Source: Sphingomonas cavernae
GTDB lineage: Bacteria; Pseudomonadota; Alphaproteobacteria; Sphingomonadales; Sphingomonadaceae
Reading direction: 5' to 3'
Assembly: GCF_003590775.1 (NCBI RefSeq)
Contig: NZ_QYUM01000003.1
Location: 560,501 to 624,500 of the forward strand
DNA: 64,000 bases
In this document: positions 1 through 60,528 of the stretch, piece by piece
Numbering within the stretch: position 1 is the first letter of the stretch
How the letters are laid out: every line of letters starts with the position of its first letter
Position numbers and translations under genes: made by a program
The notes under the pieces: model-generated
Databases searched by the model: none
What the model saw: only the letters and a program-made list of their open reading frames with translations
What the model was told of the DNA's origin: nothing

Positions 1-1
1 C

Positions 2-1162
2 ACATCGTCGGACGAGAACCTCGCTGTCACCGCGTTGTTCGCGGTGCTCCTTGCCTTCTGGACCACGACGCTCGAGGTGGCGGCGGACGCCTGGCGCATC
101 GAACTCGCGCCGACCCAGGCGGAGCAAGGCCCGATCGCAGCGGCGAACCTGTGGGGCTACCGCACCGCGATGGTCGCGGCGGGGAGTGGCGCGTTGCTGA
201 TCGCCGACCATGCCGACTGGACCATCGCCTATCTCGCCATAGCCGCGGCAGCCTTTCTGCCTTTCCCGATTCTCGCCGCCATGCGCCCCGATCCCGGGCA
301 CGGCGGCAGTCGCTGGCCGGCACTCGCCATCGGCGTCGGCACGAGCGTGGCGATCCTGTTCGCCGCCATGGCGCTGGCCGCGGCGGTCGGCTGGGTGATA
401 TTGGGCACGGCCGCGAATATGGGGATGAGCGACAAGACCAACGTCACGCCCTATGTGCTCGTGATCTGCATGGTGCCGTTCCTGATCATGGCGGCGGCGA
501 TACCCAGGATCCGCACGCTGCCAGCAGCGCATCCGCTTCGGCAATCGGCCGCGATCGGCCCCTATGTCGATTTCTTCTGGCGCTATGCCTATGGCGCACT
601 GCTGCTCATGGCGTTCGTCTCGGTCTATCGGATGGGCGACGTTCTCGCGCTCAACCTGTCCAAGCCGATGATCAAGGAACTGGGCTATTCGCTGAGCGAG
701 ATCGGGCGCGCCGACAGCTATGTGGCGCTTATCGCAAGCATAATCGGCGTGGGGCTTGGCGGCTGGATGGCCGCGCGCTGGCGCTGGGGTGTCACGCTCT
801 CGATCGGTGCGGTCTTCGCCGCGCTGGGCAATTTCGGCTTTGTCTGGCTGGCGCATCAAAGCCCGAGCGAGATGATGCTTTACATCGCTACCGCCGCGGA
901 TCAGTTCGGAAATGGCATGGCGGGCGCGATCTTCGTCGTCTATCTCTCGATGCTGGTGAACCCGCGTTATCCCGGTGCGCAATATGCCTTTCTATCGGGC
1001 TTCGCCTTTCTGTTGCCGCGACTGCTGTCGGGGGCGGGCGGCGCGATGGTGGTGCGGATCGGCTATGACGGCTTCTTCATCCTTTCAGGGCTGGTAAGCC
1101 TTGGCGCGATCCTCTTCCTGCCGTTGATCGCCCGCATCAGGCCAAGGACGGAGAAGATATGA
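2..1162 (+). CDS. AmpG-like muropeptide permease (MFS), 5' truncated
   Basis: This is an inner-membrane MFS protein resembling AmpG, which imports GlcNAc-anhydroMurNAc peptides released by wall turnover. The frame is open to the window edge, so the true start lies outside; the TTG at 35 is only the first in-window start-like codon. An acidic Asp-Ala-Trp segment near residue 25 resembles the conserved DAW motif of AmpG, and repeated hydrophobic spans run to the end. Its stop overlaps the start of the next gene (ATGA), so the two are translationally coupled. Family assignment is from motif and overall pattern; another MFS permease remains possible. Confidence 0.75.
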   Translation, partial: TSSDENLAVTALFAVLLAFWTTTLEVAADAWRIELAPTQAEQGPIAAANLWGYRTAMVAAGSGALLIADHADWTIAYLAIAAAAFLPFPILAAMRPDPGHGGSRWPALAIGVGTSVAILFAAMALAAAVGWVILGTAANMGMSDKTNVTPYVLVICMVPFLIMAAAIPRIRTLPAAHPLRQSAAIGPYVDFFWRYAYGALLLMAFVSVYRMGDVLALNLSKPMIKELGYSLSEIGRADSYVALIASIIGVGLGGWMAARWRWGVTLSIGAVFAALGNFGFVWLAHQSPSEMMLYIATAADQFGNGMAGAIFVVYLSMLVNPRYPGAQYAFLSGFAFLLPRLLSGAGGAMVVRIGYDGFFILSGLVSLGAILFLPLIARIRPRTEKI

Positions 1163-12814: not shown

Positions 12815-12876
12815 TACGGTAAGGCTCTCGTGCGCCAACCGGGCATAGCGAGTGCACGCGGCGTCATAGCCGCGCG

Positions 12877-16359: not shown

Positions 16360-16678
16360 CGGGTGGCAGAAGCGCGGGCGATCACGGTGCGCAGTATGTA
16401 TTCCATAGCGGCTGACACTCCCGGTATCCTCTCCATAATATTGATTCTATTCCAGAAATCCGGAAAGATTTTATTATCTGATATATATGCTTTATATTTG
16501 CCAATTGGGTTGCTATCAAGTGGGAAACCGCTTGGCTGCCACATGCATTGAAGCTGCCACGCCGGTTTGAAACATCACAATGGCGGCCAGCGCGTCGCCA
16601 AGGGGGTAGGATGAAAGTCGCGGCACGCGCTCCGAAAGCGAGCATGATCACGCCAGTTTGCGCGGAGCCTGTTGCGTA
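16360..16678. promoter_or_regulatory. AT-rich divergent promoter region of galactose genes
   Basis: A 319-bp gap between divergent catabolic genes, with an unusually AT-rich core at about 16436-16510. TATCTGATAT at 16475-16484 resembles half of the inverted repeat found before the TonB receptor gene. No gene is seen. Confidence 0.45.
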
Positions 16679-18469
16679 ATGCGTGGGAAAGTCGCCCTTC
16701 GTTCGCGCGCCTGGTTCAATGATATGGCGAACCCCGACATGACCGCGCTCTATATCGAGCGCTACATGAACTTCGGCCTGACGCTCGAGGAACTGCAGTC
16801 CGACCGACCGATCGTCGGCATCGCCCAGACGGGCAGCGACCTCAGCCCCTGCAACCGCCATCATATCGTGCTGGCCGAACGCGTGCGCGAGGGCGTTCGC
16901 GACGCCGGCGGCATTCCCATCGAGTTCACCACGCATCCGATCCAGGAAACGGGCAAGCGCCCGACCGCAGGGCTCGATCGCAACCTGTCATATCTCTCGC
17001 TGGTCGAGGTATTGTACGGCTATCCGCTCGACGGCGTGGTGCTGACGATCGGTTGCGACAAGACGACGCCCGCTTGCCTGATGGCGGCGGCCACGGTGAA
17101 CATCCCGGCGATCGCGCTGTCGGTCGGCCCGATGCTCAACGGCTGGCACAAGGGCGAGCGCACGGGTTCGGGCACGATCGTCTGGAAGGCGCGGCAGATG
17201 CTCGCGGCGGGCGAGATCGACTATCAGGGATTCATCAAGCTGGTTGCATCGTCGGCGCCGTCGACGGGCTATTGTAACACCATGGGCACTGCGACGACGA
17301 TGAATTCGCTGACCGAAGCGCTGGGCATGTCGCTGCCCGGTTCGGCCGCGATCCCCGCGCCCTATCGCGACCGCCAGGAATGCGCGTACCTGACGGGCAA
17401 GCAGATCGTCGAAATGGTGCTGGCGGACCGCAAACCCTCCGACATCCTGACGCGCGAGGCGTTCATCAACGCGATCCGCGTCAACTCGGCGATCGGCGGC
17501 TCGACCAATGCGCCTATCCACCTCAACGCCATTGCGCGCCACGTCGGTGTCGAGCTTTCGGTCGACGACTGGCAGGCCTTCGGCCACGATATTCCGCTGC
17601 TCGTCAACCTTCAGCCGGCGGGCGAGTATCTGGGCGAGGATTATTACCGCGCAGGCGGTGTGCCCGCGGTCGTTGCCGAGCTGATCGGGCAGGGGCTCAT
17701 TCATGAGGGCGCGCTGACGGTCAACGGCAGGACAATCGGCGACAATTGCCGCGATGCCGGGATCGAGGACGAGAAGGTGATCCGGCGGTTCGACGCGCCC
17801 TTGAAGCCGGCGGCCGGCCTTTCGGTGCTGCGCGGCAACCTGTTCGAGGCCGCGGTCATGAAGACCAGCGTCATTTCGGACACGTTTCGCGAGCGCTTCC
17901 TGTCGGATCCCGACGATCCCGAAGCTTTCGAGGGGCGTGTCGTCGTCTTCGACGGGCCCGAAGACTATCACGCGCGCATCGACGACCCCGCGCTCAAAAT
18001 CGACGAGCGGACAATGCTCGTCATCCGCGGGACGGGGCCGATCGGCTATCCGGGCGGCGCCGAGGTGGTGAACATGCGCCCGCCCGCCGCACTGATCCGC
18101 GCGGGCATCGATACGCTGCCGTGTATCGGCGATGGTCGCCAGTCGGGCACCTCGGGCAGTCCCTCGATCCTCAACGCCGCGCCCGAAGCGGCCGCGGGCG
18201 GCGGTCTGGCGCTGGTGAGGACGGGCGATCGTATCCGGATCGACCTTCGCCGCGGCGAGGCCAATCTGCTCGTGTCGGACGAGGAGCTGGCCGAGCGTCG
18301 CGCGGCGTTCGAGGCGGAGGGAGGCTATCGCTATCCCGCATCGCAGACGCCCTGGCAGGAAATACAGCGCGGCATTGTCGGCCAGTTCGATACTGGCGCG
18401 GTGCTCGAGCCCGCCGTCAAATATCAGCGCATCGCGCAGACGCGCGGCATTCCCCGCGACAGCCACTGA
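16679..18469 (+). CDS. IlvD/Edd family sugar-acid dehydratase (D-galactonate/L-arabonate type)
   Basis: A 596-residue Fe-S dehydratase that converts an aldonate to the 2-keto-3-deoxy acid. Cluster-type cysteines appear in Pro-Cys-Asn, Gly-Cys-Asp-Lys-Thr-Thr-Pro and Tyr-Cys-Asn-Thr-Met-Gly, matching the arabonate/xylonate dehydratase branch rather than DHAD. Start ATG 16679 gives the conserved Leu-Arg-Ser-Arg-Ala-Trp-Phe near the N-terminus; the TTG at 16658 is less likely. The stop overlaps the next ATG by one base (TGATG). With dgoK and dgoA present, D-galactonate is the probable substrate. Confidence 0.88.
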
Positions 18470-43226: not shown

Positions 43227-46200
43227 TCAGTCTGCCGTCCGATGGCGGACAGCGAATACGGTGTTAGCGATCACCGCCCGCGTTGCCTCGTTCTCCTGCC
43301 CGCACCACGCCGACATAATGTCGAGATCGACGCGCCGGCTATGCTCCTGGAGAATCTCACCGGCCAGACGGAGTGCGTCCTCGCTTGGAGCCTGTGTCAC
43401 CCACTCCCGCAACGCTGTGGCGATCGTCTCCCAAGCCACGCCTGCTTCGAGCACAGCTTCGATCTCGTGTGACACGAAGTGCATATCGGCGGTCAGACGG
43501 TCAAATAGTCTGGGCAGGCGGGCCTCGTTCCAACAATTGCGCGAGTCCGGAAGCCGGGGGTCGAACAGCCGGCGTCGCAGCTCGAACCATCCGACCTCAT
43601 TGCAGCCTTCTGCTAGCCAATCGAGATCCTTCTCCTCGATAAGATCAAAATAAGGCTCGAGACCCATGATCTGCTCGGGTCGCGTCAGTCCCGGATGCCC
43701 CTGCTGCTTAATTCCAAAATGCATTGTCAGAAACTCGAGCACCTTAGCGGGCTCTGGTGCCACGGCAATCGCTTGGGCTGCCCGCTCGAGCAACAGTGGA
43801 CTGGCTACGTACAAAGCCGCCTGAACAAATTGCGAGGAGTCTGAAACCGCCTCCCAGTGCTGAAGCAGCATGGCCTCCGCAGTGTCCCGGGGTAGCCGAA
43901 TGAGCGCGTTAAACAGACTATGGTCAATATCAAAGACCAGATTGGGTTCGGCGGCAATCTGGGCGGAGCGTTCATCTAATGCCCGCTGCAACGCGATCGT
44001 CAGGTCTTCGGACCATGTGGTACGCGTGAACTGCCACCAGTAGCGACGCTGGTCACTGCTAAGTTTAGGGAGAAGCTGAGGGATGGCCGTCGTGTCACCG
44101 CGCTCGAGCCGATGTCTGAGGATCCGATCGCAGAGCAAGACATCGCTCTGCCACTCTCGGAGATGGCCGAGATCGTCTTCACCCCAGCTAGACGCCCACA
44201 GATCAAACGCGGCGATCCGTTCATGCGGATCGGCAGCGGTATTCTGCCAATAGGTCCGCAGCAGCGCACGACTGTCGGTCGACATGTGGATGCCATATTC
44301 GTCGCGATAGCGCTGCCAATGGTCCTGCCCATTGCGAAAATTGAAGAAATACGATTGTTCAGATCGCTCCCTGGCCTGCGCCATCGCTCGAATGCAGAAG
44401 CGAATTGCGGCCGGATGGTCGACGGCATGGAGTAAATAATAGATTTGCCAGGACAGGTCGGCGTGAGCGCCGCGCTCAACAAGATAGTCGATCGCCGGTC
44501 CAGGCGGCCGCCGTTCAAATTTCCATCGGATCCCGCTCCCCGCCAGTTCGTCGCGCGGTGAGGGCTTGGAACCGTTACGTGTCTGCGGCAATGCTGCCCA
44601 AGCAGAGCAAACCGGGCCGAGCACGCTTTCGGCATCCTGCGATATGCAGCAGAAAGCGAAGGCCCATAGATAGTCATCGAGCCGCTCGCCGCGATCGTCG
44701 TCCGCCGCCCACGATGTGCTGATGGCTGGAGACAGCCGCGGATCGGCGACGCTGCCCGCCAAGTTGAGCAGAGCCTCGCGGATACTCCCTTCGATGGCCC
44801 TGTCTTGCAGGCGTGACGCGAGCTGCACAACAAGGGTATCGGCGTGGCGCAGCTTGGCATGCTCAATCTGACGTTCACGCCATTGGGCGCGATAAAATTG
44901 CGGTTTCAAACAGTCCTCGATACCCGCGTCGAGATCGCCGTTGCGAAGACGAGCCATGCGACTGTGCGCGGTGCTTTCGGGAAGTGCCTTCGCGAGCACC
45001 ACAATGTCGGGCCCCTCGGCCTCCATCAACACCGCCGCAATCTCGCCGCGGAGCGAACGCTGATCATATCCTCGGTTTGACTCCGCGGCCAACCACTGCT
45101 CCGCTACGGCGAGCAGCTTCGATCGCGCCGGCGAGCCGTACTCGGCCCGACGCAGCGCATGGAAGATGGCGAGCGGATTTTTCCGACAGACCCGCTTGAG
45201 GAAGGCGTCCGCGCCAACGTGAGAAAGCACGAGATCGCCGAACACCGCTGCGAAGAACGGATCCCCAACAATATCGTCGCCGAGCGCGTCAGCATCGAGA
45301 AGCGCGGCGGCCGCCTCGACCAGCAAATGATCGCGAACCCGATCATGTCGAAATCCCACTTTCTGTCGAGCCGAGCTGCCCTCCAGGCGCACGACTTCGC
45401 CGTGGGCGACCAACTGGCGTAGCGCGTGCAAGCTGGGACTGATGGTCGACCATCCCGTGACGTCGTTCCACGATGGCGCCAGCCTGCGCCGCTGCAACAT
45501 TTGCTGGGTCATTTGGAGGAGCGCGACGTGAAGCTCGCCCGCCGGGATTCCCGTGCGGCTCTCGCAGCGCCGCAGCGAGCGTTCGACGAAGTCCGAGATC
45601 ACCGCATCGGGCGTCGATGTGGCGCCAAACGCATGTAGCCCGATCAGCAGCGGATCGTGCCCTAAGGCCGTGGAGAGCGCATAGCTTGCTGCGGTGCTGA
45701 TAGGATGATCAACCGCCTTGGCTTTCGCCTCGAGCGCCGCGATGCCGTCCTCGGGTGTGAACGGCTTCGGCTGGACAAGCATCGGCTCGACAAGGCGGCG
45801 CGCTTGCTCGGAAAGGCCGTTCATCACCCGAGGCCAGACCGGACAAAGGATCCGCCAGGTCGGCGAGCCCCGATTTTCCTCTCCGGTCGCCTCGCCAGCC
45901 CATCGTGCCACTTTCTCAATCGCGCGGGACGGGTTGACTGCATGGTTGATGTCTTCGATCAGTAGCAGCACTGGCCTGGCTGCTGACGCCAACGACATGG
46001 CGCTCGACGATTCCGCGAGAGAGGGGTGCAGTCGCCGCAGGCTGGTCATCACGGCGCCGCTCAACGACGCGGCCTCTTCGACCACATCTTCCGCGATTAT
46101 CAACGCGAATCCGCCGCCTGCGATCCAATGGTTCATCGCGCGGAGACAGGCGACCGTCTTCCCCGATCCCGACTCGCCCAGCACAAAGCTGATCGGTTGT

Positions 46201-46850
46201 CGGGATTGGACGAGCTGACGATCAAGCTCGCGCCCAATCCACGTGCGCGATGAACCGGACGGCACGAGAGTCGCAAAGCTGGCGCGCGACAGGTCAGCGA
46301 GAAGGTCGGGAGACAGGAGCTCCTGCTCGATCCCAAGCAATGTTCGACGAATCCACTGACCGGTGGGATCAGTGTCGAGCACGCGAGCCAGACGAACCCG
46401 CGACCAGATTTCGACCGTGATGCCGAAGGCCGCGCCCAGCGCCACTGCATCCCGCACCAACTGCTCATCGGGCTCCCGGTTGGTGGTGAGAAACAGCGTC
46501 GTCGCAAGACTGGGTGTGCGGCGCCGTTCGTGTGCAACGATCTCTGCGGTCTTAGCGATGTCGCCTAGGCGTGCCTTCTTCTCGCCATTGGATTGAGTGA
46601 GCCATTTCGCCCTTAGGTCGCGCTCAGCAGCGGTAGTGTGGTGGGCGATAACCATGTGAGGTGGCTCCGCATCCCGGACAAAGCCGATATTGTCGACCGG
46701 CGAAGCGCGCGTTTTTCCCGCTGCGTTCACCCCCTGTTGGGAGAGCGCGGCACAGAATGGCTCAGCATGGTGCAAAACGGCGAGCGCAAGTTGCTCGAAC
46801 CGGCCTTCATCGGTGATCTCGGCGAGCGCCTTGGTCGTTCGCGGGTCCAC
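43227..46850 (-). CDS. Mrr-like nuclease-STAND NTPase (downstream member of pair)
   Basis: A 1207-residue three-part protein. An N-terminal restriction-endonuclease-like domain (about residues 1-150) shows Glu in Gly-Arg-Phe-Glu, Asp in Pro-Val-Asp-Asn-Ile and a core strand ending His-His-Thr-Thr where a Lys is usual. A P-loop NTPase follows: Walker A Gly-Glu-Ser-Gly-Ser-Gly-Lys-Thr at 225-232, Walker B Leu-Leu-Leu-Ile-Glu-Asp at 295-300. The last 700 residues are helical, TPR/HEAT-like, and would sense a ligand. I use GTG 46850, four bases after the upstream stop; a TTG at 46889 would overlap it. The architecture is that of Avs/STAND antiviral proteins. Confidence 0.75.
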   Translation of the reverse strand: MDPRTTKALAEITDEGRFEQLALAVLHHAEPFCAALSQQGVNAAGKTRASPVDNIGFVRDAEPPHMVIAHHTTAAERDLRAKWLTQSNGEKKARLGDIAKTAEIVAHERRRTPSLATTLFLTTNREPDEQLVRDAVALGAAFGITVEIWSRVRLARVLDTDPTGQWIRRTLLGIEQELLSPDLLADLSRASFATLVPSGSSRTWIGRELDRQLVQSRQPISFVLGESGSGKTVACLRAMNHWIAGGGFALIIAEDVVEEAASLSGAVMTSLRRLHPSLAESSSAMSLASAARPVLLLIEDINHAVNPSRAIEKVARWAGEATGEENRGSPTWRILCPVWPRVMNGLSEQARRLVEPMLVQPKPFTPEDGIAALEAKAKAVDHPISTAASYALSTALGHDPLLIGLHAFGATSTPDAVISDFVERSLRRCESRTGIPAGELHVALLQMTQQMLQRRRLAPSWNDVTGWSTISPSLHALRQLVAHGEVVRLEGSSARQKVGFRHDRVRDHLLVEAAAALLDADALGDDIVGDPFFAAVFGDLVLSHVGADAFLKRVCRKNPLAIFHALRRAEYGSPARSKLLAVAEQWLAAESNRGYDQRSLRGEIAAVLMEAEGPDIVVLAKALPESTAHSRMARLRNGDLDAGIEDCLKPQFYRAQWRERQIEHAKLRHADTLVVQLASRLQDRAIEGSIREALLNLAGSVADPRLSPAISTSWAADDDRGERLDDYLWAFAFCCISQDAESVLGPVCSAWAALPQTRNGSKPSPRDELAGSGIRWKFERRPPGPAIDYLVERGAHADLSWQIYYLLHAVDHPAAIRFCIRAMAQARERSEQSYFFNFRNGQDHWQRYRDEYGIHMSTDSRALLRTYWQNTAADPHERIAAFDLWASSWGEDDLGHLREWQSDVLLCDRILRHRLERGDTTAIPQLLPKLSSDQRRYWWQFTRTTWSEDLTIALQRALDERSAQIAAEPNLVFDIDHSLFNALIRLPRDTAEAMLLQHWEAVSDSSQFVQAALYVASPLLLERAAQAIAVAPEPAKVLEFLTMHFGIKQQGHPGLTRPEQIMGLEPYFDLIEEKDLDWLAEGCNEVGWFELRRRLFDPRLPDSRNCWNEARLPRLFDRLTADMHFVSHEIEAVLEAGVAWETIATALREWVTQAPSEDALRLAGEILQEHSRRVDLDIMSAWCGQENEATRAVIANTVFAVRHRTAD

Positions 46851-46854
46851 GGGA

Positions 46855-49800
46855 TTAAGCGACCTTGCCCGGTTGGTGCCCGAGTGCAAGCCAGGCCGGC
46901 TGTGCAGCGGTCGGCCACGCGCTGGCGCAATCGATATCCGGATGGTTGGGCTCGGTCATCGGTTTACCGTAGCGGTCGCGCAGATGATCGACCGCCTGGA
47001 GGCACGATCGAATATGCGCAGCTTCTGGATTTGCAAGTAGTTGATGAAATGCAGCTTGCCTGAATTTCGGCAGCGGCGCCCCTTCCAATTCAAAGGCGTC
47101 GGTAATCCCTTCGACGGCCAGGCGCGACACCGCGGCGTGTTCGAGTCGATCGACCAGTACCCGAGCGATCACGTCGCCCGAGGGAGCGGCCGCATACGAC
47201 AAGAGCACCATGGCTTCGCCCTCGTCCATCGTTTGCGCAATCGCGTCGGCAATCGCCGCACGCTTGCCCGGATGCTCGATATTCCCGAGCAGGCTAATAG
47301 CCCGCGTCCGCGCCTCCGTTGAACGCGCCAAGGCGGTCGCCAGCGCAGTGCGCAAAGCAAAGGAGTCGCGCCAGGTCTTCGGATCTTCGGGTGCGCCGAT
47401 CACGGCATCGAATAGGGCGTTGGCAGCTTCAGCGCTGCCTATCCGCGTCATCGCCTCCGGCCAGCCATCGCGGATAAGTTCTGGCGATCGCTGTATGAGC
47501 TCGATCAGCGCTCCGACTGCGGTTGGGGAAATCGAGTGGCCGATGGCAAAAACCAGGTTCCGCAGACGGTATTGCCGCCGCATCTCGACCGGGAGCTCGT
47601 CGAATACGGGGAGCACGGCTCGCACATCGTCGGAGAAGGCGATGAGGCGAAACCAATCCTCTATTCGCCAATAGTCATTGTCATGAACCCATTTCATTGC
47701 CGCGAGCGCCACAGCGGCAGCAGCAATCCCGTGACGAACGATATGCGCCGGCAGCGCTTCCCCGCGCTCGGAAAAGGCCTTGCAGAAATCGCGCAGCAAG
47801 CCGTTATCCTTGCCGGCTTCGATCAGCGCCACGAGGGCCGGGCCGCGATCGCCATAGTTCATCAGCGTCACCGGACCCGCTAACTGAAACGCGCGCGTAA
47901 TCGCATCAGCGGTTCCCTCCGCGACCAGCGCCTCGATCCGGTCGATGATCTTCGCGGCGATGGGATGAGGTGGACTGGCGCGCCGTTCGATCAATCGGGC
48001 CCGCCGTGTGCCAAGATCGTCCAATTTGGGGCCCATCGGGCCGCGTGGCGCCGGATCGATCTCGAGCAGCTGTCCAAGCACGATCGCCGCATCATGTTCG
48101 AATGTCGGGTCATCGATGCGTGTTGTCATTGCGTCGATCACGGCGTCGCCACCGATCCCAAGCATCGCGCCGCGATATTGATTATCGTAGCCCATAAACG
48201 CTTCGCTGGCGCGAGTTCCGTGCGGGTTGACGGCGTACTCGGCACGTTCAGCAGTCTGTCGCGTTCGATCGCGATCCCACAACGACATCAATGGCAGCAA
48301 TAAGGCTTCGCTTCCTATCCGCCCGATCAGCCTGGCGAGCTCGGCGAGGTCCCAGCGCGGGAGTTGGTCACCTGAGCCCAGCAGCAAGGCGACCCAGTCT
48401 TGCGCCCGCTCGATCAAAACATCTTTGTGGGCGATAGGAATTGCAAACGCGCGCTCCTCGTCGCGTCCGCGCCAATCGGCCAACATCGATGCCAGGATCG
48501 CCGCCTGCGCCGCGCTTTGCGCAGGGCGAGACAAGACATCGGTAATCAAGAGATCGAGACGGACGCTGCGCAGCACATCGCGCACTTCCTGGGTATCCGG
48601 GCGGCGTAGCGCCCCCCGGTCGCCGGCGCAGCCCATCATGTGATCGATCAGCGAAGCGACGCAATCACGCCCCAGAAGCTGCGCGGCGATTTGACGGCGG
48701 TAGTAATTCTCGTCCTTTGATTTGGCGATGACGAGCAGCTGCGCCTGCTCAGCCGGCTCGACGCCATCTAGATAGGCATCCACGGGATAAGGAAGGGGAT
48801 CGCCGTTTAGCAGACGGGCAAGCAGTATCGATTGGAAGAGCGCCGGAAACCGCGCGAACAGCTTTTCTTCCAGCTGATGGCTAGCCCAGTGATTGTCGGT
48901 CTTGAGATCGAGTGCCACATTGACGATCTGCGTTGGTGGCGCACAGTCGAACTCAAGTGCAAGATGTGTCCATTCGAAGCCTTCGGCGTGATCGAACCGG
49001 TCTCGGCGATAGCTCTGCCAGCGCTCGCGATGCGCCGAAGTCAGGCATTCCGGCTCACGGCCCCGAGCCAGCTCTACCCACATTTTGTCGGGCAAGCTTT
49101 CAAGCAGGCCTTCGAGCCGGGTCCGCTCATCCCGGAAATCGAGATAGTCGATGACGCCGGCAACAACATTGGCGCTGGGATCGGTTGCCGCGGCACGAAG
49201 CGCGAGCGCCAAACTCGCGTTGTCGCCTTGCTCAACGAGATCGATCAGCAGCACGCGGCGTGTCTGATCCTTGAGTGCGGGGAAGCGCAGCGCCCACTGC
49301 GACTCAAGCGCGCTGATGGGAAAGCTTCGTCCCGTGCGATGCAGGTCGAACGCCAGCTCACCGCTTTTTTCAAGCGCGGCCCATAATGTCGCGCCGAACT
49401 GCCCAAGGCCGGTTGCGAGCATGAAGGGTATCGCGCGCGATGAATCTTCACCTTTCCAGCGCTCGGCGAACGCGATGATAGCCTCGTCGAGGCTCCGGCC
49501 GACACATTCTCGCGATAGGCGAAACATATCTGCCGCGAGAAACGGTTCGATCCCGAGCGTCGTCAGTATGAGCGCCCGCAATGGCACCGCAGCGGCCTTT
49601 GACCGGGCGACGCGTTCGACAGCAAACAGAACGGCGACCGCCCAGAAGGGGGCGTTGATCACCTTGCTCAGAGACTCGTTGATCAGGCCTTCCTGTTGGG
49701 ACTCGATCATCCTCGCCACGCGAAACGAGGCGAACCACTCCTGAATCAGCTGATGCTGCAGTCCGATCGTTCGTTCGCCGGGAGCCCCTATGCCGACCAG

Positions 49801-51636
49801 CAAGTGATGGCTGACAAGCAGGTCGAGCACCGTCTGAGGTGATGCCGGCTGGGTCAGGAACTGCTGTGCGCGGAGGTTGCTCGCCACGGCCGCTATCGTG
49901 GGAAGCAGGGTCTCTTCTGGACAGAAAGTAGTCCCGGCATTCATTAGCTCTTCGGCGATCGCCTGCAGAAAGATGCGATGTTGACCGTCAAGCGCCACAC
50001 GCAGCTGCTCGCGCCGCGCCGGGGTCCCACCGGCCTCAGCCACCAGACGGGCGATAACGGTCTCGCGATCGGTCGGCAGTGTTCCGCTCGCACCCTGCCG
50101 CAGGATCGCAGCGAGAAAGAGAGGCGTGCGCAAAAGTGGACGTAGCGTCGGGACGGAGCGCGCACGCCCGATCAGATCATGGCCGGCAGGACCTACCAAA
50201 CGTGCGGCCACGTCGAGCTGTCGATCGCGATCGAAGGGGAGCACCTCGAGAGTGGCTGCCGGCGAAAACGGAGCGGCCGTCCCCGTCCGAGTCGCGATCA
50301 CCAGCGGCATCGAGGGATAGTCACGCCGCAGGGCGTCGAGTTCAGCCCACGCCCATTGCCGCTGTTCAGGGTTAAGCTCGTTCCAGCCGTCCAGCAAGAG
50401 AATGAGCTGCGCGGCGTTCGCCAGAGTGGCAAAGCCGCCTTCTGACAGCGCGGCAAAGCTTCCCTTACCGCACAGCTGCGACACGATCGAGTCGCCGCGC
50501 AGTGCCAGATAGGGTAGGCTCCGCACGATCGGGACAATGTCGGGCTGCACGAGCAGCATGACCGCGATTTGCTGCAAAGCACTCGTCTTGCCGGCGCCCG
50601 GCTCGCCGACGAGGATGACGGAGCGGGCCGCGCGCAACTCGGCTTCGACCTCAGTGAGCTGGACAATTCTCTCGGGTGCATCGGCTTTAGCGGCATCGCG
50701 TGTGCCGAAAACCGGATCGATCAGCTGTGCTTGGTCGCGCTCACGAAACGCTGCGAGTTCCGGCTCGGCGCCACGACGCCCGGCCTGTAATGCCTCGACG
50801 GCCTGATCCGGCAGCGCCGCTAGGCGGGTGCCGAAGCGATCGCGCAGGAGCGAAACCGTCTGCACACTATCGAGGCGCACGGCGCGGACGTTGAGCTGTT
50901 TGGCGAGGGCCTCGAGGATCGCGAAAATCTGGGTCGGATTGGCGCCGTCGGACGGTGCGACCTGGCGAAGCTGGTCGATCGCACGGAGGCGATCGGCTCC
51001 ACGATCGCTGGTCGCTTCCAGGCGGCCGAGCACAAAGTTGCGCCAGAAGAAATGCATGTCCTCCGCCGTCGGGGCAGAGCCGAGCTCCCTCGTTAGGATC
51101 ACCTTCACCGTCTCGTGAGCCTTACGTTCCGCCAGCCCCATCTGATCTGCGACGGCTGCAGTGAAGGCCGCCGGATCGGCCTCTAGACGGGCCTGGTCGC
51201 TGAGCTTTTGGCACGCATAGTGATTGGCTGCGGCAAGGATCTCGCTCAACCCGCCGGCAAGGTCGCGGCCGTCGACAAAGTCCGGCAGTTTCATGGTCGT
51301 CCAGGCTTCGGCCACGATCTGGGCAAAGTCTGTGTCCTCGCCTTTAGAGATGGCGAGGCTTCGCTTCAGCTGGAGGTCGAGCGTGCCGCAGCGGCCGGCA
51401 TCGTCTTCCCATTCAAGCACGACATCGTCGAGTGGCCGTCCAAGCGCCTTTTGCTGTACCGCGACACTGGTCACAATGCCCGGGCAGCCCGGCGCATGCG
51501 ATCGGGTCAGAAGCGCCGCAAGATAGGCCGCGATGCAGGCATGCTCATAGCTTGTGCCGACGCCGCCAGTCGCTTCCGGCGAGGCTGCGCGGCCCGTCGA
51601 AACGGCGTCCGACGCATCGTCGGAGAGCGCGTCCAT
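46855..51636 (-). CDS. Cap4/PD-(D/E)XK-like nuclease-NACHT NTPase (upstream member of pair)
   Basis: A 1593-residue protein. Residues 25-120 look like a PD-(D/E)XK nuclease: Glu in Ser-Tyr-Glu-His near 32, Asp-Asp at 70-71, Gln-Leu-Lys at 89-91. A NACHT-type NTPase follows: Walker A Gly-Glu-Pro-Gly-Ala-Gly-Lys-Thr at 344-351, Walker B Leu-Leu-Leu-Asp-Gly-Trp-Asn-Glu at 413-420. About 1000 residues of alpha-helical repeats form the C-terminal sensor. The ATG at 51636 overlaps the stop of a small upstream ORF (TAATG), which supports that start over GTG 51708. It resembles bacterial NACHT/Avs defence proteins. Confidence 0.78.
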   Translation of the reverse strand: MDALSDDASDAVSTGRAASPEATGGVGTSYEHACIAAYLAALLTRSHAPGCPGIVTSVAVQQKALGRPLDDVVLEWEDDAGRCGTLDLQLKRSLAISKGEDTDFAQIVAEAWTTMKLPDFVDGRDLAGGLSEILAAANHYACQKLSDQARLEADPAAFTAAVADQMGLAERKAHETVKVILTRELGSAPTAEDMHFFWRNFVLGRLEATSDRGADRLRAIDQLRQVAPSDGANPTQIFAILEALAKQLNVRAVRLDSVQTVSLLRDRFGTRLAALPDQAVEALQAGRRGAEPELAAFRERDQAQLIDPVFGTRDAAKADAPERIVQLTEVEAELRAARSVILVGEPGAGKTSALQQIAVMLLVQPDIVPIVRSLPYLALRGDSIVSQLCGKGSFAALSEGGFATLANAAQLILLLDGWNELNPEQRQWAWAELDALRRDYPSMPLVIATRTGTAAPFSPAATLEVLPFDRDRQLDVAARLVGPAGHDLIGRARSVPTLRPLLRTPLFLAAILRQGASGTLPTDRETVIARLVAEAGGTPARREQLRVALDGQHRIFLQAIAEELMNAGTTFCPEETLLPTIAAVASNLRAQQFLTQPASPQTVLDLLVSHHLLVGIGAPGERTIGLQHQLIQEWFASFRVARMIESQQEGLINESLSKVINAPFWAVAVLFAVERVARSKAAAVPLRALILTTLGIEPFLAADMFRLSRECVGRSLDEAIIAFAERWKGEDSSRAIPFMLATGLGQFGATLWAALEKSGELAFDLHRTGRSFPISALESQWALRFPALKDQTRRVLLIDLVEQGDNASLALALRAAATDPSANVVAGVIDYLDFRDERTRLEGLLESLPDKMWVELARGREPECLTSAHRERWQSYRRDRFDHAEGFEWTHLALEFDCAPPTQIVNVALDLKTDNHWASHQLEEKLFARFPALFQSILLARLLNGDPLPYPVDAYLDGVEPAEQAQLLVIAKSKDENYYRRQIAAQLLGRDCVASLIDHMMGCAGDRGALRRPDTQEVRDVLRSVRLDLLITDVLSRPAQSAAQAAILASMLADWRGRDEERAFAIPIAHKDVLIERAQDWVALLLGSGDQLPRWDLAELARLIGRIGSEALLLPLMSLWDRDRTRQTAERAEYAVNPHGTRASEAFMGYDNQYRGAMLGIGGDAVIDAMTTRIDDPTFEHDAAIVLGQLLEIDPAPRGPMGPKLDDLGTRRARLIERRASPPHPIAAKIIDRIEALVAEGTADAITRAFQLAGPVTLMNYGDRGPALVALIEAGKDNGLLRDFCKAFSERGEALPAHIVRHGIAAAAVALAAMKWVHDNDYWRIEDWFRLIAFSDDVRAVLPVFDELPVEMRRQYRLRNLVFAIGHSISPTAVGALIELIQRSPELIRDGWPEAMTRIGSAEAANALFDAVIGAPEDPKTWRDSFALRTALATALARSTEARTRAISLLGNIEHPGKRAAIADAIAQTMDEGEAMVLLSYAAAPSGDVIARVLVDRLEHAAVSRLAVEGITDAFELEGAPLPKFRQAAFHQLLANPEAAHIRSCLQAVDHLRDRYGKPMTEPNHPDIDCASAWPTAAQPAWLALGHQPGKVA

Positions 51637-51830
51637 TATGCCGTGCCAGCTAGCAGATGGTCGACCAATGCCTGAGCCTGGTCGCTCAGCCGCGCTCCGG
51701 AAACGCACGGACGGCGTCGAAACATGGAGGCTGGACGATCAACTGGATTTGGGCGGCTAACCAAGGCATCCTCAATTGCCGAGTTGGGTGTGCTAAGTGT
51801 CCGGTATTGGACGGGAGCGGGCACGCGCAC
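51636..51830 (-). CDS. Small ORF translationally coupled to NACHT NTPase
   Basis: A 64-residue reading with GTG start at 51830, five bases after the stop of the next small gene, and a TAA that shares its last base region with the NTPase ATG. The C-terminal half (Arg-Leu-Ser-Asp-Gln-Ala-Gln-Ala-Leu-Val-Asp-His-Leu) is amphipathic helix. Coupling at both ends argues that it is translated; no domain is recognised. Confidence 0.45.
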   Translation of the reverse strand: MRVPAPVQYRTLSTPNSAIEDALVSRPNPVDRPASMFRRRPCVSGARLSDQAQALVDHLLAGTA

Positions 51831-51834
51831 GCCC

Positions 51835-52053
51835 TCAGGCGACCTGCTCGTATCCAGTGGCACGCAGCATTTCGGCTGGGTCCGCCACCTCGCCATGAAG
51901 GGTGACATAGATCCAGAGCGCGGCATCCTCCTCTCGAACGTCGACATCCGGTGAACCCGGCTGATTGATGTTGCCGAACCTGGGGCAGCCCTTTGCCGTC
52001 TCCTCATCTGAGAAGCGATCGTCGAATCGTCGGCGGTAAGCATGTGTCGTCAT
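51835..52053 (-). CDS. Small acidic hypothetical protein at head of NTPase operon
   Basis: A 72-residue protein, acidic, with Phe-Ser-Asp-Glu-Glu-Thr, Asp-Val-Asp-Val-Arg-Glu-Glu-Asp and Leu-Trp-Ile-Tyr-Val-Thr-Leu-His-Gly. Codon choice looks coding. It begins the minus-strand run that leads into the two giant NTPases and may be a regulator or cofactor of them; this rests on position only. Confidence 0.55.
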   Translation of the reverse strand: MTTHAYRRRFDDRFSDEETAKGCPRFGNINQPGSPDVDVREEDAALWIYVTLHGEVADPAEMLRATGYEQVA

Positions 52054-52662: not shown

Positions 52663-54018
52663 ATGAACAAGCGTGCAAGCATGGAGCAGAAGCTAGCCGA
52701 GATCGTGCGCTTCTGCCACGACAAGGTGAAGGAGCTACGCTCAACTGATCCCAATGACATCCCACTGCGTGATCGTATGGCGCATTTCGCGCCTATCTCA
52801 GACCGGTCAGGCGAAACCTATGTTGAAGTGGGCATGGAAGCTCGAATCCGAATCCAGGAATGGTGCTTCGAATATCTCAAGCGCCGTGCTTGGACTCATC
52901 TCATTAGCGTGTCGCAGTGCGCCGACCGCGTCGAAGAGGCGATCGCTTTCCGGTTCTTCAAAACCAGACGAGTGGCTGAAATCGGTGCGATCGCCAAGCT
53001 GGTCTCGGCGCTAGACAAGTCGATCCAGGCGGACGTGAAACCGCATCGCTATCTCTGGCTCTGCCACATCTGCTTCGGCACCAACCCTGGCGAATTTTGC
53101 ATCGGCACGGTTCGATTCCGGCCGACCGCCTTGTGCGGCAGTGAAGTCGAAGCCGCGATAGGATCATGGCGATCACCGGTCGAGGAAGGTTTTCGCGCTC
53201 GCGTCGAAGAGCACTACCGTTCATTTGGCTGGATTGCTGACGTCACAGTCGAGACTGCTGATCGGGCGGCTGCGAAACGGATGTCACTTTTGGCCGCCCA
53301 GACGGCGCTAACAGTCATCAAACTGTTTCTGTCGGATGGAGGAAGCGAAAGCCGCATTCGCATGGCTGAACAGCCAAATTACCTGCTCGACCGCGCAGAG
53401 CTCTACTTCATTGGCCCGGAGCCACATCTGACATGGCATCAAGATGGTGGCCAGGCTTCGTTCGCAGAGACGTGGTGGGAGAATCTCAACCAAGGGGATA
53501 ACGCCATTCGGCTGCGCGCGCTCGACCGCGTCGTCTGCGCGGTGAGCAGGCCTCAAGAGCAGACCTTTCTCAAACTCAAATATCTGAACGCGTTGCGCTG
53601 GTTCAATGATGCTTCAATCGATGTATATGCTGGCTCCCGGATTGCGAAATTCGTGACCGTCCTTGAAACGCTGACCGGTTGCAATGAGCGAGATCAACTG
53701 GCCGAAGCGGTCGGTGATCGAGTTGCCTATATGTTAGCCGGCTGGCCGGATGAAGGTACGCCGGAAGACATCCGCACGAAGGTCAAACGTATTTACGTCG
53801 TGCGCTCCGAGCTTCTGCACGGGGTGCGAGATCCGATCGGTCTCGAGCTCGGCCGCATTGCCGTCGATGCCGCGCATGTCGCGCATATGACGCTCGTCGC
53901 CTTCCTTGATCTCATGATTCATATCGGCGTCGACCGCGATGACTATGACCATGCCAAACTAATCAGGGACTTTGCCATTACTAAGGGCAACGTCCAGAGG
54001 ATGGCCGGTGGTGTGTGA
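52663..54018 (+). CDS. HEPN-domain protein, ApeA-like candidate abortive-infection RNase
   Basis: A 451-residue protein. The C-terminal third is helical and contains Arg-Ser-Glu-Leu-Leu-His (R381-x4-H386), the catalytic R-x4-H signature of HEPN ribonucleases, within Val-Val-Arg-Ser-Glu-Leu-Leu-His-Gly. The N-terminal two thirds have no recognised domain. This layout recalls ApeA and other single-gene HEPN defence proteins that cut tRNA or mRNA on infection. It stands divergent from the NTPase operon. RNase activity is inferred from the motif. Confidence 0.6.
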   Translation: MNKRASMEQKLAEIVRFCHDKVKELRSTDPNDIPLRDRMAHFAPISDRSGETYVEVGMEARIRIQEWCFEYLKRRAWTHLISVSQCADRVEEAIAFRFFKTRRVAEIGAIAKLVSALDKSIQADVKPHRYLWLCHICFGTNPGEFCIGTVRFRPTALCGSEVEAAIGSWRSPVEEGFRARVEEHYRSFGWIADVTVETADRAAAKRMSLLAAQTALTVIKLFLSDGGSESRIRMAEQPNYLLDRAELYFIGPEPHLTWHQDGGQASFAETWWENLNQGDNAIRLRALDRVVCAVSRPQEQTFLKLKYLNALRWFNDASIDVYAGSRIAKFVTVLETLTGCNERDQLAEAVGDRVAYMLAGWPDEGTPEDIRTKVKRIYVVRSELLHGVRDPIGLELGRIAVDAAHVAHMTLVAFLDLMIHIGVDRDDYDHAKLIRDFAITKGNVQRMAGGV

Positions 54019-56978: not shown

Positions 56979-57462
56979 TGTCCGGTACCTCTCCCGAATT
57001 GCGAACCTGATGAATCAGTCGGGCCCCAGGGCCACAGGTAGTGACCCTAACACGAAAAACAGTCGCATCCTGCCATCGAGCGATAACTTAAACGGATGGC
57101 GGCTTTCCGGAAGCTCAATGGCGCCGATGAATGTCCTAGTTGGCGGCGGTGGCGGCCACTTCGAAAGCCACCAACAACATTGGTGACCTGTTCAATCCAG
57201 ATCACTACCGTTCGAGAGCGCACGCCATGCAGTAGCGTCAGCGGCTATTGGCTCCGGCCGAAGTGCGTTCCAACGACTGCCGAACGGAAAACCGCCGCCC
57301 GCCCGAATCCTTTGCCAAGGCGGAGGCGATCAGTTGTAAGTAGCTGTTTTTTATAATGCAATTACTTCGTGAGTGAGGAGTGAACTAATACAATGGATAG
57401 CTTCAGAGGAGCACGCCGTTGCACAAACGGAGCAACGATCTTGCGACCTGACACGGAAATGG
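56979..57462. other. Intergenic region up to tRNA-Arg, no integrase
   Basis: About 480 bp on the 3' side of the tRNA gene, where an island integrase would be expected. No gene, and no copy of the tRNA 3' end, was recognised here. Confidence 0.4.
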
Positions 57463-57536
57463 CGCGCCCGGCAGGATTCGAACCTGCGACCCCAAGCTTA
57501 GAAGGCTCGTGCTCTATCCAACTGAGCTACGGGCGC
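57463..57536 (-). tRNA. tRNA-Arg (anticodon TCT)
   Basis: Reads GCGCCCG acceptor strand, D arm GCTCAGTTGGATAGAGC, anticodon stem CGAGC/GCTTG (one G-T pair) around loop CTTCTAA, T loop GTTCGAATC, acceptor CGGGCGC and discriminator G. CCA is not encoded. Its 3' end faces the accessory island. Confidence 0.95.
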
Positions 57537-57648
57537 GCAATGCATGGCCAGCAAAAATGGGCGCGGCTTGGCGCCCGGACCATGCATCAATGACGCACGC
57601 GCATAGCGTGGATTGCATGAGCAGGAAACCTCGATAGTGTGCCGCGCC

Positions 57649-58377
57649 ATGAGCACAGGGGAAACGGGCGCGCCGAAAGCTGTTTCGGCCGGGGCACTTA
57701 CGGGCGGGCATTTCCGCTATTTCGATTTCGTCATGGCGGCGTTCGTCGTCATACTGCTGCTCTCCAACCTGATCGGCGCGGCCAAGCTCTCGACGGTGGC
57801 GGGCTTCACCTTTGGCGCGGGCATCCTGTTCTTTCCGCTGGGTTATGTGATCGGCGACGTGCTGACCGAGGTTTATGGTTTTGCGCGCGCGCGGCGCTGC
57901 GTCTGGGTGGGCTTCGTTGCGATGCTGTTCATGGCGGTGATGAGCTGGGTGGTGGTCGCACTTCCGCCAGCCGAGGGCTGGGGCGACCAGGGGGCCTATG
58001 AGGCGGTGTTCGGCAACACCTGGCGGATCGTTTTCGCCTCGCTTTTCGCCTTCTGGGCGGGCGAATTCGCCAACAGCTTCGTGCTCGCCAAGATGAAGAT
58101 CTGGACCGAGGGCAAACATCTGTGGACGCGCACCATCGGCTCGACGGTGGTCGGGCAGGGGGTCGACAGCCTGATCTTCTACCCGCTCGCTTTTTACGGC
58201 GTGTGGGAGACCTGGCAGGTCGCCGCGGTGATGGTCACCAACTGGGCAATGAAGGTGGGCTGGGAAGCGGTGCTGACGCCCGTCACCTACGCCGTGGTGG
58301 GCTGGCTCAAACGTCGCGAGGGCGTTGATGTGTTCGACCGGGGCACCGATTTCACGCCGTTCAGCGCGCGCATTTAA
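57649..58377 (+). CDS. yhhQ: Queuosine precursor transporter (YhhQ family)
   Basis: A 242-residue integral membrane protein of the VUT/QueT group that imports preQ0/preQ1 or queuine precursors. Hydrophobic spans begin at Phe-Asp-Phe-Val-Met-Ala-Ala-Phe; family signatures include Phe-Phe-Pro-Leu-Gly-Tyr-Val-Ile-Gly-Asp-Val-Leu-Thr-Glu-Val-Tyr-Gly and Val-Gly-Gln-Gly-Val-Asp-Ser. ATG 57649 is preferred; a TTG at 57613 would add 12 unlikely residues. First gene of core-like DNA right of the tRNA. Confidence 0.88.
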   Translation: MSTGETGAPKAVSAGALTGGHFRYFDFVMAAFVVILLLSNLIGAAKLSTVAGFTFGAGILFFPLGYVIGDVLTEVYGFARARRCVWVGFVAMLFMAVMSWVVVALPPAEGWGDQGAYEAVFGNTWRIVFASLFAFWAGEFANSFVLAKMKIWTEGKHLWTRTIGSTVVGQGVDSLIFYPLAFYGVWETWQVAAVMVTNWAMKVGWEAVLTPVTYAVVGWLKRREGVDVFDRGTDFTPFSARI

Positions 58378-58380
58378 AGA

Positions 58381-58695
58381 ATGAGCCCGCTGCAGCAAGC
58401 CAAGCTGTTCATCGTCATGCATTTCGATCTCGCGAAGGACGCGCTGCACATCTATGTCGGGCTTGCGGTGTTCTTTTCGGTCGCCGCGATCTTCCGGGTG
58501 TCGCTGAAGGACTGGCGACCGCTGCTCGCGGTTCTGATCGTTGCGCTGGCTGGCGAGCTTTGGGATATCGTCGATACGCTGGGCGAGGGCCGCTCGCCCG
58601 AATGGTCGGCCAACTGGAAGGATGTCTGGAACACGATGTTCTGGCCAGCCGCGATCATGTTGATCGCGCGCCACACCCGACTGCTGAAGCGCTAG
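58381..58695 (+). CDS. Small inner-membrane protein of unknown function
   Basis: A 104-residue protein with about three hydrophobic segments (residues 22-40, 46-62, 85-96) and Asp/Glu-rich loops. Starts 3 bp after yhhQ, so co-transcribed. It may be a VanZ-like membrane protein, but the match is weak. Confidence 0.7.
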   Translation: MSPLQQAKLFIVMHFDLAKDALHIYVGLAVFFSVAAIFRVSLKDWRPLLAVLIVALAGELWDIVDTLGEGRSPEWSANWKDVWNTMFWPAAIMLIARHTRLLKR

Positions 58696-59126
58696 CGCCT
58701 GGTGGTAACTGGCGCCGGCTGCCCTTCGATTTTTGGCAGCGTTTCGTCGATCAGCGCCCAGTGCGGGGCGGAATCGGTCCAGATCGTCGCGCTCGGCCGT
58801 GCGACTTCGGGGTCGTCGAGCGTACCCGCGCGCACGATGATCAGGTGCGGACGCACCTCGGCCTCGCTGAACAGCGGTGTGCCGCACGCGGGGCAGAAGC
58901 GCCGATGCATGACGTTGCCGCTGTCGGCATGGCTCTCATAGCCGCGCGTCTCGCCGGTGATCGCGATTTTGTCCGACGGAAAGATCACGTTCACCGTCGC
59001 GTTGCCCGCGGCGAGGTGCTGGCAATCGCGGCACCAGCAGATGCGCGTCGCGATCGGTTCCGCGTCGATCGTGTAGCGGACGGCGCCGCAGAGGCAGCCG
59101 CCGGTAACGGGCAGGGTTGTGGTCAT
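58692..59126 (-). CDS. GFA-family (CENP-V/formaldehyde-activating-like) zinc protein
   Basis: A 144-residue protein with the GFA zinc cysteines: Gly-Gly-Cys-Leu-Cys-Gly-Ala-Val near residue 11, Cys-Trp-Cys-Arg-Asp-Cys-Gln near 32, and Phe-Cys-Pro-Ala-Cys-Gly-Thr-Pro near 80. The role of most members is unknown. ATG 59126 overlaps the VapC stop, so it is expressed with a toxin-antitoxin pair. Confidence 0.88.
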   Translation of the reverse strand: MTTTLPVTGGCLCGAVRYTIDAEPIATRICWCRDCQHLAAGNATVNVIFPSDKIAITGETRGYESHADSGNVMHRRFCPACGTPLFSEAEVRPHLIIVRAGTLDDPEVARPSATIWTDSAPHWALIDETLPKIEGQPAPVTTRR

Positions 59127-59572
59127 TCGGACGCTCCAAACAATGCGCCGATCGCGTCGCGATTGGCGATGGCGAACGGGTTCAGCACGGTAAGGCCGTC
59201 GATGCTCATGCCGTTCTGCAGATCCTCGGACAGAAGGATCCTGGCGCCCGATCGCAAGGCAACCGCACAGATCAGCGCATCGAAAAACTGCATCTTGTAA
59301 CGCGCGCGCAGCCGCTGGGCGGCGATCAGGTCGGCGGGCATGGTCGGCGCGACATCGAAGAGCGCGAGCCATTCTTCGACGCGTTCGAGCGATTGTGCGA
59401 TCGCCGCGGGATTCTTGCGGCCCGTGACATTCAGAAATTCCGCGAGCACTTGAACGGGCACGGTCGCGGGTAGCAGAAAGAGCTGCGAGACCAACTGTTC
59501 GGCCTCGGCGTTGCGCGCATCACCGTCCTGCGCGGCGGCATAGACCAATATATTGGTATCGACCGAGATCAA
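59123..59572 (-). CDS. PIN-domain toxin (VapC type)
   Basis: A 149-residue PIN RNase. Asp5 in Ser-Val-Asp-Thr-Asn, Glu in Leu-Ala-Glu-Phe, Asp in Phe-Phe-Asp-Ala-Leu and Ser-Glu-Asp-Leu-Gln-Asn-Gly complete the acidic site. Start overlaps the antitoxin stop by 4 bp. Its C-terminal Ala-rich tail is longer than in the other PIN toxin of this window. Confidence 0.92.
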   Translation of the reverse strand: MISVDTNILVYAAAQDGDARNAEAEQLVSQLFLLPATVPVQVLAEFLNVTGRKNPAAIAQSLERVEEWLALFDVAPTMPADLIAAQRLRARYKMQFFDALICAVALRSGARILLSEDLQNGMSIDGLTVLNPFAIANRDAIGALFGASE

Positions 59573-59814
59573 CGGCCGGTGCGTTCTTCGTAGGTCGCGG
59601 GTCCCGTTAGGCCTGGTATGCCTTCCTTCAGCCCTTTGACCGCGCGCTCATAGGCCGCCCGGAATTCGGGATCGTCGAGCTTGCTCGCCTTTTTTGGGCG
59701 AAGTTCGGCGATCACCTTGCCGTTCTTGGTGATGTCTAGCGTCTCGCCCGCCTCTACGCGTGCCAGCGCCTTGGAGACGTTCGCGTTGAATTCGCGCACC
59801 GACATCACGCCCAT
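59569..59814 (-). CDS. Phd/YefM-family antitoxin
   Basis: An 81-residue antitoxin: Met-Ser-Val-Arg-Glu-Phe-Asn-Ala-Asn-Val, Val-Glu-Ala-Gly-Glu, then Gly-Lys-Val-Ile-Ala-Glu-Leu-Arg-Pro. Pairs with the overlapping PIN toxin; Phd with VapC is a common mixed pairing. A perfect palindrome lies just upstream. Confidence 0.9.
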   Translation of the reverse strand: MGVMSVREFNANVSKALARVEAGETLDITKNGKVIAELRPKKASKLDDPEFRAAYERAVKGLKEGIPGLTGPATYEERTGR

Positions 59815-59825
59815 TGTCGCCTCCG

Positions 59826-59846
59826 ATGTTGCAACGGTTGCAACAT
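59826..59846. promoter_or_regulatory. Perfect palindrome, operator of Phd/VapC pair
   Basis: ATGTTGCAAC-G-GTTGCAACAT: perfect 10-bp arms around a single central base, 12 bp before the antitoxin start. The position suits autorepression by the Phd protein. Confidence 0.65.
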
Positions 59847-59862
59847 AAGGGAGGGGCGTGGC

Positions 59863-60528
59863 TTAAGCAACCGCCTCCAGAACGCCCTCGAACAGACGGC
59901 GGCCGTCCAACCCGCCATGCGCGGGTTCGATCATGCGTTCGGGGTGCGGCATCATGCCGAGCACATTGCCCTGCGCATTGAGGATGCCCGCGATGCCGCG
60001 CGCGGCACCGTTGACTTCCTCGGCGTAGCGGAAGGCGACGCGGCCTTCGCCTTCAAGTCTGTCGAGCGTCGCGTCGTCGGCGAAGAAATTGCCGTCATGA
60101 TGCGCGACGGGGATGCGGATTTCCTCGTTCGCCTTGTAACGGCTGGTGAAGATCGACTGGGTGTTCTCGACCGTCATCGCGACGTCGCGGCATACGAAGT
60201 TGAGCCCCGCATTGCGCATCAGCGCGCCGGGCAGCAGCCCGGTTTCGGTCAGGATCTGGAAGCCGTTGCACACGCCGAACACGGGCACGCCGCGTTCTGC
60301 CTCTGCTACCACGGCGCGCATCACGGGGCTGCGTGCGGAGATCGCGCCCGAGCGCAGATAGTCGCCATAGGAAAAGCCGCCCGGGATACCGATGAAGCCG
60401 AGGCCCGAGGGCAACTCGGTGTCGGTGTGCCAGATCATGTCGGGCTTGCGCCCGGTAACCTGCTCAAGCGCCACCGCCAGGTCGCGGTCGCAGTTGGAAC
60501 CGGGAAAGACGATGACGGCGGTCTTCAT
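59863..60528 (-). CDS. purQ: Phosphoribosylformylglycinamidine synthase, glutaminase subunit
   Basis: A 221-residue class I glutamine amidotransferase that supplies ammonia for FGAM formation in purine synthesis. Nucleophile Cys in Gly-Val-Cys-Asn-Gly-Phe-Gln near residue 87, His-Pro-Glu in Met-Pro-His-Pro-Glu-Arg near 196, and the start Ile-Val-Phe-Pro-Gly-Ser-Asn-Cys-Asp. Starts 4 bp after purS; works with PurS and the separate PurL. Confidence 0.97.

Follow-up and report, generated by a model that had tools for sequence, protein, structure and literature searches.

Two adjacent genes for probable nuclease-type STAND receptors in Sphingomonas cavernae and the exchanged partners of their relatives

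Do two giant receptor genes that lie end to end act as a dedicated pair, or is each a defence gene in its own right? This question is raised by a 64,000-nucleotide (nt) stretch of the Sphingomonas cavernae genome (NZ_QYUM01000003.1, 560,501-624,500; hereafter the window, whose numbering is used for its features), in which two neighbouring genes, A and B, each encode a nuclease-like head, a nucleoside triphosphatase (NTPase) of the signal transduction ATPases with numerous domains (STAND) and a long C-terminal part. Single-protein Avs and bNACHT receptors are already known, and Avs4 is a single-gene system. We consider it probable that A and B are two pattern-recognition nuclease receptors of the Avs/bNACHT type, i.e. 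STANDs resembling nucleotide-binding leucine-rich repeat receptors (NLRs), in one operon. Tandem nuclease-STAND pairs recur with close junctions and exchanged partners; the parts of the A/B pair are of known kinds, and the new element is this recurrent partner-swapping tandem. A literature search spanning few subscription journals, bioRxiv not among its sources, returned no report of operons with two complete nuclease-STAND receptors and exchangeable partners.

Architecture of receptors A and B

A (51636..46855) and B (46850..43227) are co-directional on the minus strand with 4 nt from the TAA of A to the GTG of B, which confirms the two adjacent giant nuclease-STAND genes of 1593 and 1207 amino acids (aa) described in the initial annotation. 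Labels beginning with L and G denote comparison loci and genomes, L043 being a marine metagenome-assembled genome.

46855..51636, minus strand: gene A, 1593 aa; nuclease-type head, NACHT, HEAT-like stretch and NCAB2; from open reading frame (ORF) and translation, with homologues in L043 (65%) and L097 (40%)
51037..51636, minus strand: nuclease-type head of A, about residues 1-200; E31, D70, D71, Q89, K91
50212..50625, minus strand: NACHT NTPase of A, residues 338-475; PF05729; P-loop Lys K350
46912..47145, minus strand: C-terminal NCAB2 of A, residues 1498-1575; PF22726, E 7.3e-24
43227..46850, minus strand: gene B, 1207 aa; nuclease-like head, STAND NTPase and helical solenoid; from ORF and translation, homologues and AlphaFold model
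46326..46850, minus strand: nuclease-like head of B, about residues 1-175; E19, D53, K82, D97, K100; H70/T72 at the (E/Q)xK position
45291..46313, minus strand: STAND NTPase of B, about residues 180-520; P-loop Lys K231, D300, FRHD at 500-503
43230..45263, minus strand: C-terminal helical solenoid of B, about residues 530-1207; model secondary structure up to residue 1200; presumed sensor

The succession of head, NTPase and tail is given for B by the model and for A by domains and motifs, and both P-loops are intact. The NACHT of A passes the Pfam cut-off (PF05729, E 5.2e-7, 30.1 bits vs 26.7), K350 is invariant in all four aligned rows, and HEAT_2 stretches fall slightly below the cut-off (E 1.2e-5). 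As in bNACHT proteins, a NACHT-associated C-terminal domain is present, namely NCAB2 near the end of A. The head of A is nuclease-type by motif: across 15 rows of the head family, D70, D71, Q89 and K91 never vary and E31 hardly does, a pattern which we take to be that of a PD-(D/E)xK nuclease with QxK. 'Cap4-like' is a reasoned label for this head, because no row of the family matches PF14130.

The AlphaFold model of B (residues 1-1200; mean predicted local distance difference test score, pLDDT, 84.9) has an alpha/beta core in the head, and its best structural matches are Avs4, SAMD9 and NLRs. The Avs4 alignment covers positions 1..411 of the model, head included, and karyopherin-type solenoids match from residue 530. 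By this model, B combines nuclease-like head, STAND and helical tail in one chain, the same plan as Avs4 (AVAST type 4; PDB 8dgf).

The B head keeps E19, D53, K82, D97 and K100 unchanged in all 25 aligned rows, window included. Position 70 is H in 17 rows, E in four, A in three and Q in one; position 72 is T in 22, A in two and G in one. The earlier view that His for Lys marks one of the two heads as altered misread a family-wide motif: Thr, not His, replaces Lys, and since the deviation from (E/Q)xK extends through the family, the 'altered' head is a family trait. Lysine in 0/25 rows would suit a B head that is catalytically dead or no nuclease at all, with A alone cutting DNA, but such a reading has to accommodate the five identical residues, the solitary state of most of the 25 genes, which would have to supply their own effector, and a conservation that is higher in the head than elsewhere in B (residues 1-200 are 75% identical to L043 and 76% to L047); we hold it to be improbable. 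Both genes are under purifying selection: measured against L043, the ratio of non-synonymous to synonymous change (pN/pS) is 0.33 in A and 0.27 in B, rough figures because synonymous sites are near saturation. Single full-length homologues of B also occur on haloarchaeal plasmids (L004 and L006, 28% and 25% identity), and the family therefore spans Bacteria and Archaea.

Several results weigh against Avs/bNACHT-type nuclease receptors. The head of A matches no Pfam family, its 15 rows give no match to PF14130 (Cap4_nuclease) at E<=1, and a model of A residues 1-700 from four sequences (pLDDT 44) was unusable and kept out of fold searches. For B, the Foldseek template modelling scores of the best matches are low (~0.2), PADLOC returned no family at E<=1, Avs models included, solved chains searched by sequence and with the B profile yielded P-loop matches or noise only, and the canonical (E/Q)xK lysine is missing from the head family-wide, which makes catalysis uncertain. 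Pfam matches of B are below-threshold P-loop matches only; solved-structure sequence searches with A and the A-head profile gave P-loop or weak matches at most, and the PADLOC matches of A are weak, PDC-M54A (E 0.0012) covering head and NTPase.

Neighbours of B and of A in other genomes

Relatives of B were compiled at 31 loci including the window, from a contig scan with alignment A2 (22 loci), six plasmids and three further loci; a first contig scan with the B sequence alone had found no relative, and L056 (same contig as L034) and plasmid H3 were left out of the count. Only the upstream side is fully visible at six of the loci (L034, L049, L058, L062, L063, L064), where B is truncated, interrupted or placed at the end of a contig. 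A nuclease-STAND lies directly adjacent to B on the same strand in 6/31 loci, with three unrelated kinds of partner, some of them split or remnants. The A-B pair recurs once, in L043 (identity 65% for A and 68% for B, 2-nt gap), whereas L061 and L064 carry STANDs of 1716 and 1715 aa with a Cap4-like (A-like) head that overlap B by 4 nt (ATGA). A third arrangement is found in L065 (8076-17836), where HipA is followed by a helix-turn-helix-containing homologue of PD-lambda-4_A (PADLOC E 7.2e-166) and, ~270 nt on, by B, both large genes being split by frame breaks in the assembly. The sixth locus, L052 (9006-9911), holds a deletion remnant in which 66 residues of an A-headed STAND are fused to its last ~250; it overlaps a full-length B, and B can therefore outlive its partner. 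L002, where an A-headed STAND lies ~2 kb downstream of B with an AbiEii gene between them, was counted as not adjacent.

At the other 25 loci no nuclease-STAND directly adjoins B on the same strand, and the genome of L047, whose B is 67% identical, gave no match when searched for A. By the test set in the initial annotation, homologues of B mostly have no such neighbour, which goes against a dedicated A+B system. One clade of the B tree comprises the window and L043 (both A-paired), the solitary L047 and L065, with L043 nearer to L047 than to the window. Because the tree mixes paired and solitary members, partners have been lost or exchanged.

On the side of A, neighbours were covered in eight of 20 plasmid records with A relatives, other A matches (e.g. 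G010, G548, G795) being left out, and in five of 10 plasmid records, Marinovum among them, with relatives of a further family, C. Intact genes that join A head and A body number three (window; L043, 65%; L097, 40% over residues 17-1582), and all three lie directly beside a second nuclease-STAND, which is B in the window and L043 and C in L097, 113-221 nt upstream of A depending on the A start. Family C proteins have ~1300 aa and a DD..QxK head:

L097, 3496-7416: family C gene
L072, 626-4444: family C gene
L102, 12002-15901: family C gene
L115, 2563-5886: family C gene

C adjoins NACHT genes in L097, L072 and L115. In the latter two, HNH-type NACHT genes directly follow C; they overlap it by 14 nt in L072, and in L115 the gap is 15 nt if the gene starts at a TTG and 30 nt if it starts at an ATG. 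In L102, AbiE genes precede what remains of an A gene (52% over residues 19-128), and a divergent C lies ~2 kb off on their far side. C is unrelated to the B family, likeness being limited to the P-loop surroundings. The heads of A and of family C are weakly similar in profile comparison (hhalign, E 2.4e-4, probability only 43%), with the DD and QxK residues aligned. Of two C proteins scanned, the L102 head matches PF14130 barely under the cut-off (E 5.9e-5) and the L097 head has no match. PADLOC gave short head or P-loop matches only (LmuA and HamA for L102, mad8 for L072, none for L097), and the C-head profile reached LmuA among solved structures at E 0.38, besides P-loop or weak matches. 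A further tandem is carried by an Azospirillum plasmid (L078), where an A-headed STAND (7998-13205; PDC-M54A/Avs4-like) is followed by a P-loop protein (13323-16555) whose head, read by eye, is restriction-endonuclease-like.

Three counts argue against pairing as a general rule. The sample of intact A genes is small, with the A-B pair in only two of the three. Among 11 loci with A-body NACHT relatives that lack the A head by BLAST (L035, L036, L038, L071-L074, L099-L101, L115), only L072 and L115 have a second receptor directly adjoining on the same strand; where the A-like head sits on a different body (13 loci), L061, L064 and L078 alone do.

How far do these neighbourhoods allow a fixed partnership? 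If A and B formed an obligate hetero-oligomer or a sensor/helper pair, in which one senses and the other executes as in paired plant NLRs, one would understand the close junctions (4 and 2 nt) kept at 65-68% identity, the 4-nt ATGA overlaps of a second clade and the presence of a second receptor right next to every one of the three intact A genes. It would be harder to understand why such a neighbour is missing from 25 of the 31 B loci, why the L047 B lies in a genome without an A match, why the L043 B is nearer to this solitary gene than to the B of the window, and why A's partners B and C are alike only around the P-loop. We judge an obligate pair unlikely, and the exchange of partners makes it improbable that B generally depends on a fixed hetero-oligomer. 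The coupled pair of the initial annotation is supported in part, by the recurrence of tandem nuclease-STANDs with tight junctions and by the pairing of every intact A gene in the sample; a dedicated A+B system is not supported in the form stated.

Co-occurrence points in both directions. A search for A in eight B-holding genomes gave three matches: the pair of L043 itself, the head in L061 and, in G795, a distant match to the A body. In a phylum sample of 398 genomes, A was found in 18 and B in six (three convincing), only the genome of the window being common to both; in an order sample of 396 genomes, B was found in four (two convincing), and both convincing ones are among the 13 with an A match. 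This co-occurrence (2/2 vs 13/396) corresponds to p ~0.001, a rough value in that A and B draws are separate and some of the 13 A matches are weak and confined to the NTPase. In G671, an A gene and a B gene lie 1.1 Mb apart. Such separation, together with the missing neighbour at most B loci, the varying partners and the toxin-antitoxin or defence-type genes frequent near such receptors (AbiEii, Lit, RES, HipA), would be expected of independent single-gene defence systems whose adjacency in a defence island has no functional meaning. On the other hand, chance neighbours would hardly account for co-directional junctions, ranging from a 14-nt overlap to a 15-30-nt gap, in four combinations (window/L043, L061/L064, L072, L115), nor for the co-occurrence in the order sample, rough as it is. 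We regard full independence as possible but doubtful.

Two side observations concern other P-loop genes near relatives of A and C. In L099, an HNH-type NACHT relative of the A body (7276-11637) is separated by 3.5 kb from an opposite-strand P-loop protein of 1040 aa (15114-18236) whose start looks restriction-endonuclease-like. On a Caulobacter plasmid (L110; 390-4919, 7995-11891), a C gene is preceded by a RES-family gene, and a second P-loop protein with a head that appears nuclease-like by eye lies ~3 kb off.

Proposed action and relation to known systems

For the two Avs/bNACHT-type receptors that we favour, the long C-terminal part of each would bind a phage product, the ATP-dependent NACHT or STAND module would oligomerise, oligomerisation would switch on the N-terminal nuclease head, and the activated head would cut DNA, so that the infection would be aborted. 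Phage sensing, DNA cleavage and abortive infection are proposed here by analogy, and co-transcription of A and B is presumed. B most likely acts alone, because it usually lacks such a partner, and A may need, or benefit from, a second receptor, since none of its three intact genes is without one. Neighbouring plant NLRs are likewise two complete receptors side by side; the likeness is an analogy only, as A and B have nuclease-type heads and lie in one operon, and any dependence between them would be hypothetical.

The mechanistic precedent comes from Avs1-4, nucleases that recognise phage packaging proteins and cleave phage and host genomes, which leads to altruistic death (PMC12931631). The same tripartite logic with a required DNase head has been described for bNACHT25 and bNACHT32 (PMC12169576). 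These clade 6 proteins share with A a PD-(D/E)xK-type head motif, the NACHT and a C-terminal associated domain, which is NCH1 in bNACHT25 but NCAB2 in A. Moreover, bNACHT25 is a receptor that needs host DnaJ and has no partner gene named in the accessible text of that report (PMC12169576), whereas A sits beside a second receptor. B differs from Avs4 in its altered (E/Q)xK and in having no profile match to Avs models. The PADLOC candidate PDC-M54 is close in one component, as M54A (1621-1657 positions) weakly matches A and better matches further A-headed STANDs, e.g. those of L061, L002 and L078. B was rejected as PDC-M54B, for which the model has 496 positions and is far shorter than B; this model (PDLC04703) has no match in the genome of the window, and likewise none in any control genome. 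A homologue of PD-lambda-4 component A precedes B in L065, while A and B of the window match no PD-lambda-4 model.

A wider and rather speculative reading, to which we give little weight, is that of a modular class in which a NACHT-NCAB2 receptor with a nuclease-type or HNH head is combined with an exchangeable nuclease-STAND (B, C), often beside a toxin-antitoxin module, as a sensor/helper network of the kind formed by plant NLRs. The toxin-antitoxin module (AbiE, perhaps HipBA or RES) would then set expression or provide a second line of defence. If the receptors cooperate, they would be an experimentally tractable bacterial counterpart to the logic of paired and helper NLRs; if they act independently, the operon still shows receptors stacked as cassettes. 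In either case, B and C are two STAND families for which the PADLOC release searched has no model that reaches beyond a short stretch (scanned: B of the window, L043 and L061; C of L072, L097 and L102).

AbiE remnant and genomic surroundings

The two small upstream ORFs that had been counted as parts of the system fall outside it, as A is preceded by the end of a toxin gene and the 72-aa ORF has no matches:

51636..51697, minus strand: 3'-end remnant of an AbiEii toxin gene; its TAA overlaps the ATG of A (TAATG); gapless alignment to L043
51835..52053, minus strand: 72-aa ORF, unsupported as a gene; no Pfam, PADLOC, NCBIfam or plasmid match

The operon of L043 has the order AbiEi-AbiEii-A-B, with TAATG and GTGA junctions ahead of A (AbiEi PF09407, E 6.8e-12; AbiEii PF08843, E 1.6e-23). 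Between the window and L043, gapless in-frame similarity extends from A into the last ~20 AbiEii codons (~61 nt), starting at 51697. The remnant has a protein score of 47 against a shuffle mean of 33.5 and maximum of 46, with 0/200 shuffles reaching 47; because the best shuffle came to 46, the call leans on position and frame. A complete AbiE type IV toxin-antitoxin module (AbiEi and AbiEii before A) is not present in the window, which has the AbiEii 3' end only. An ancestral operon of the order AbiEi-AbiEii-A-B, from which AbiE has disappeared in the window, is the most likely origin of the present one. The AbiE genes beside the A remnant of L102 are 73.7% and 71.4% identical to those of L043, AbiE also precedes C in L111, separated from it by an IS110, and HipA and RES precede the PD-lambda-4_A homologue of L065 and the C gene of L110, respectively. 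Promoter-like sites number three against 0.4 expected, two of them upstream of A and one across its start, which is a weak signal.

Divergent from A, a 451-aa gene (52663-54018) carries an RxxxxH motif (RSELLH) and a weak PtuB-like PADLOC match (E 0.024); a Pfam scan of it gave no match. Further on (57458-60269), a tRNA-Arg and the DNA beyond it match the same-genus L098, and the DNA before the tRNA does not.

The receptor pair seems to be placed in a tRNA-bordered variable region, as G004 matches the tRNA-Arg and the DNA beyond it, and the 16.8 kb before it show no match at all. A second copy of the tRNA-Arg 3' end, as an attachment (att) repeat, was sought within the window and not found. 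A pattern search of viral contigs, which reaches close relatives and the patterns used only, gave no relative of A or B, and phage records searched with B gave no match. The search of phage records with A gave a single 6.8-kb record, which matches A residues 350-866.

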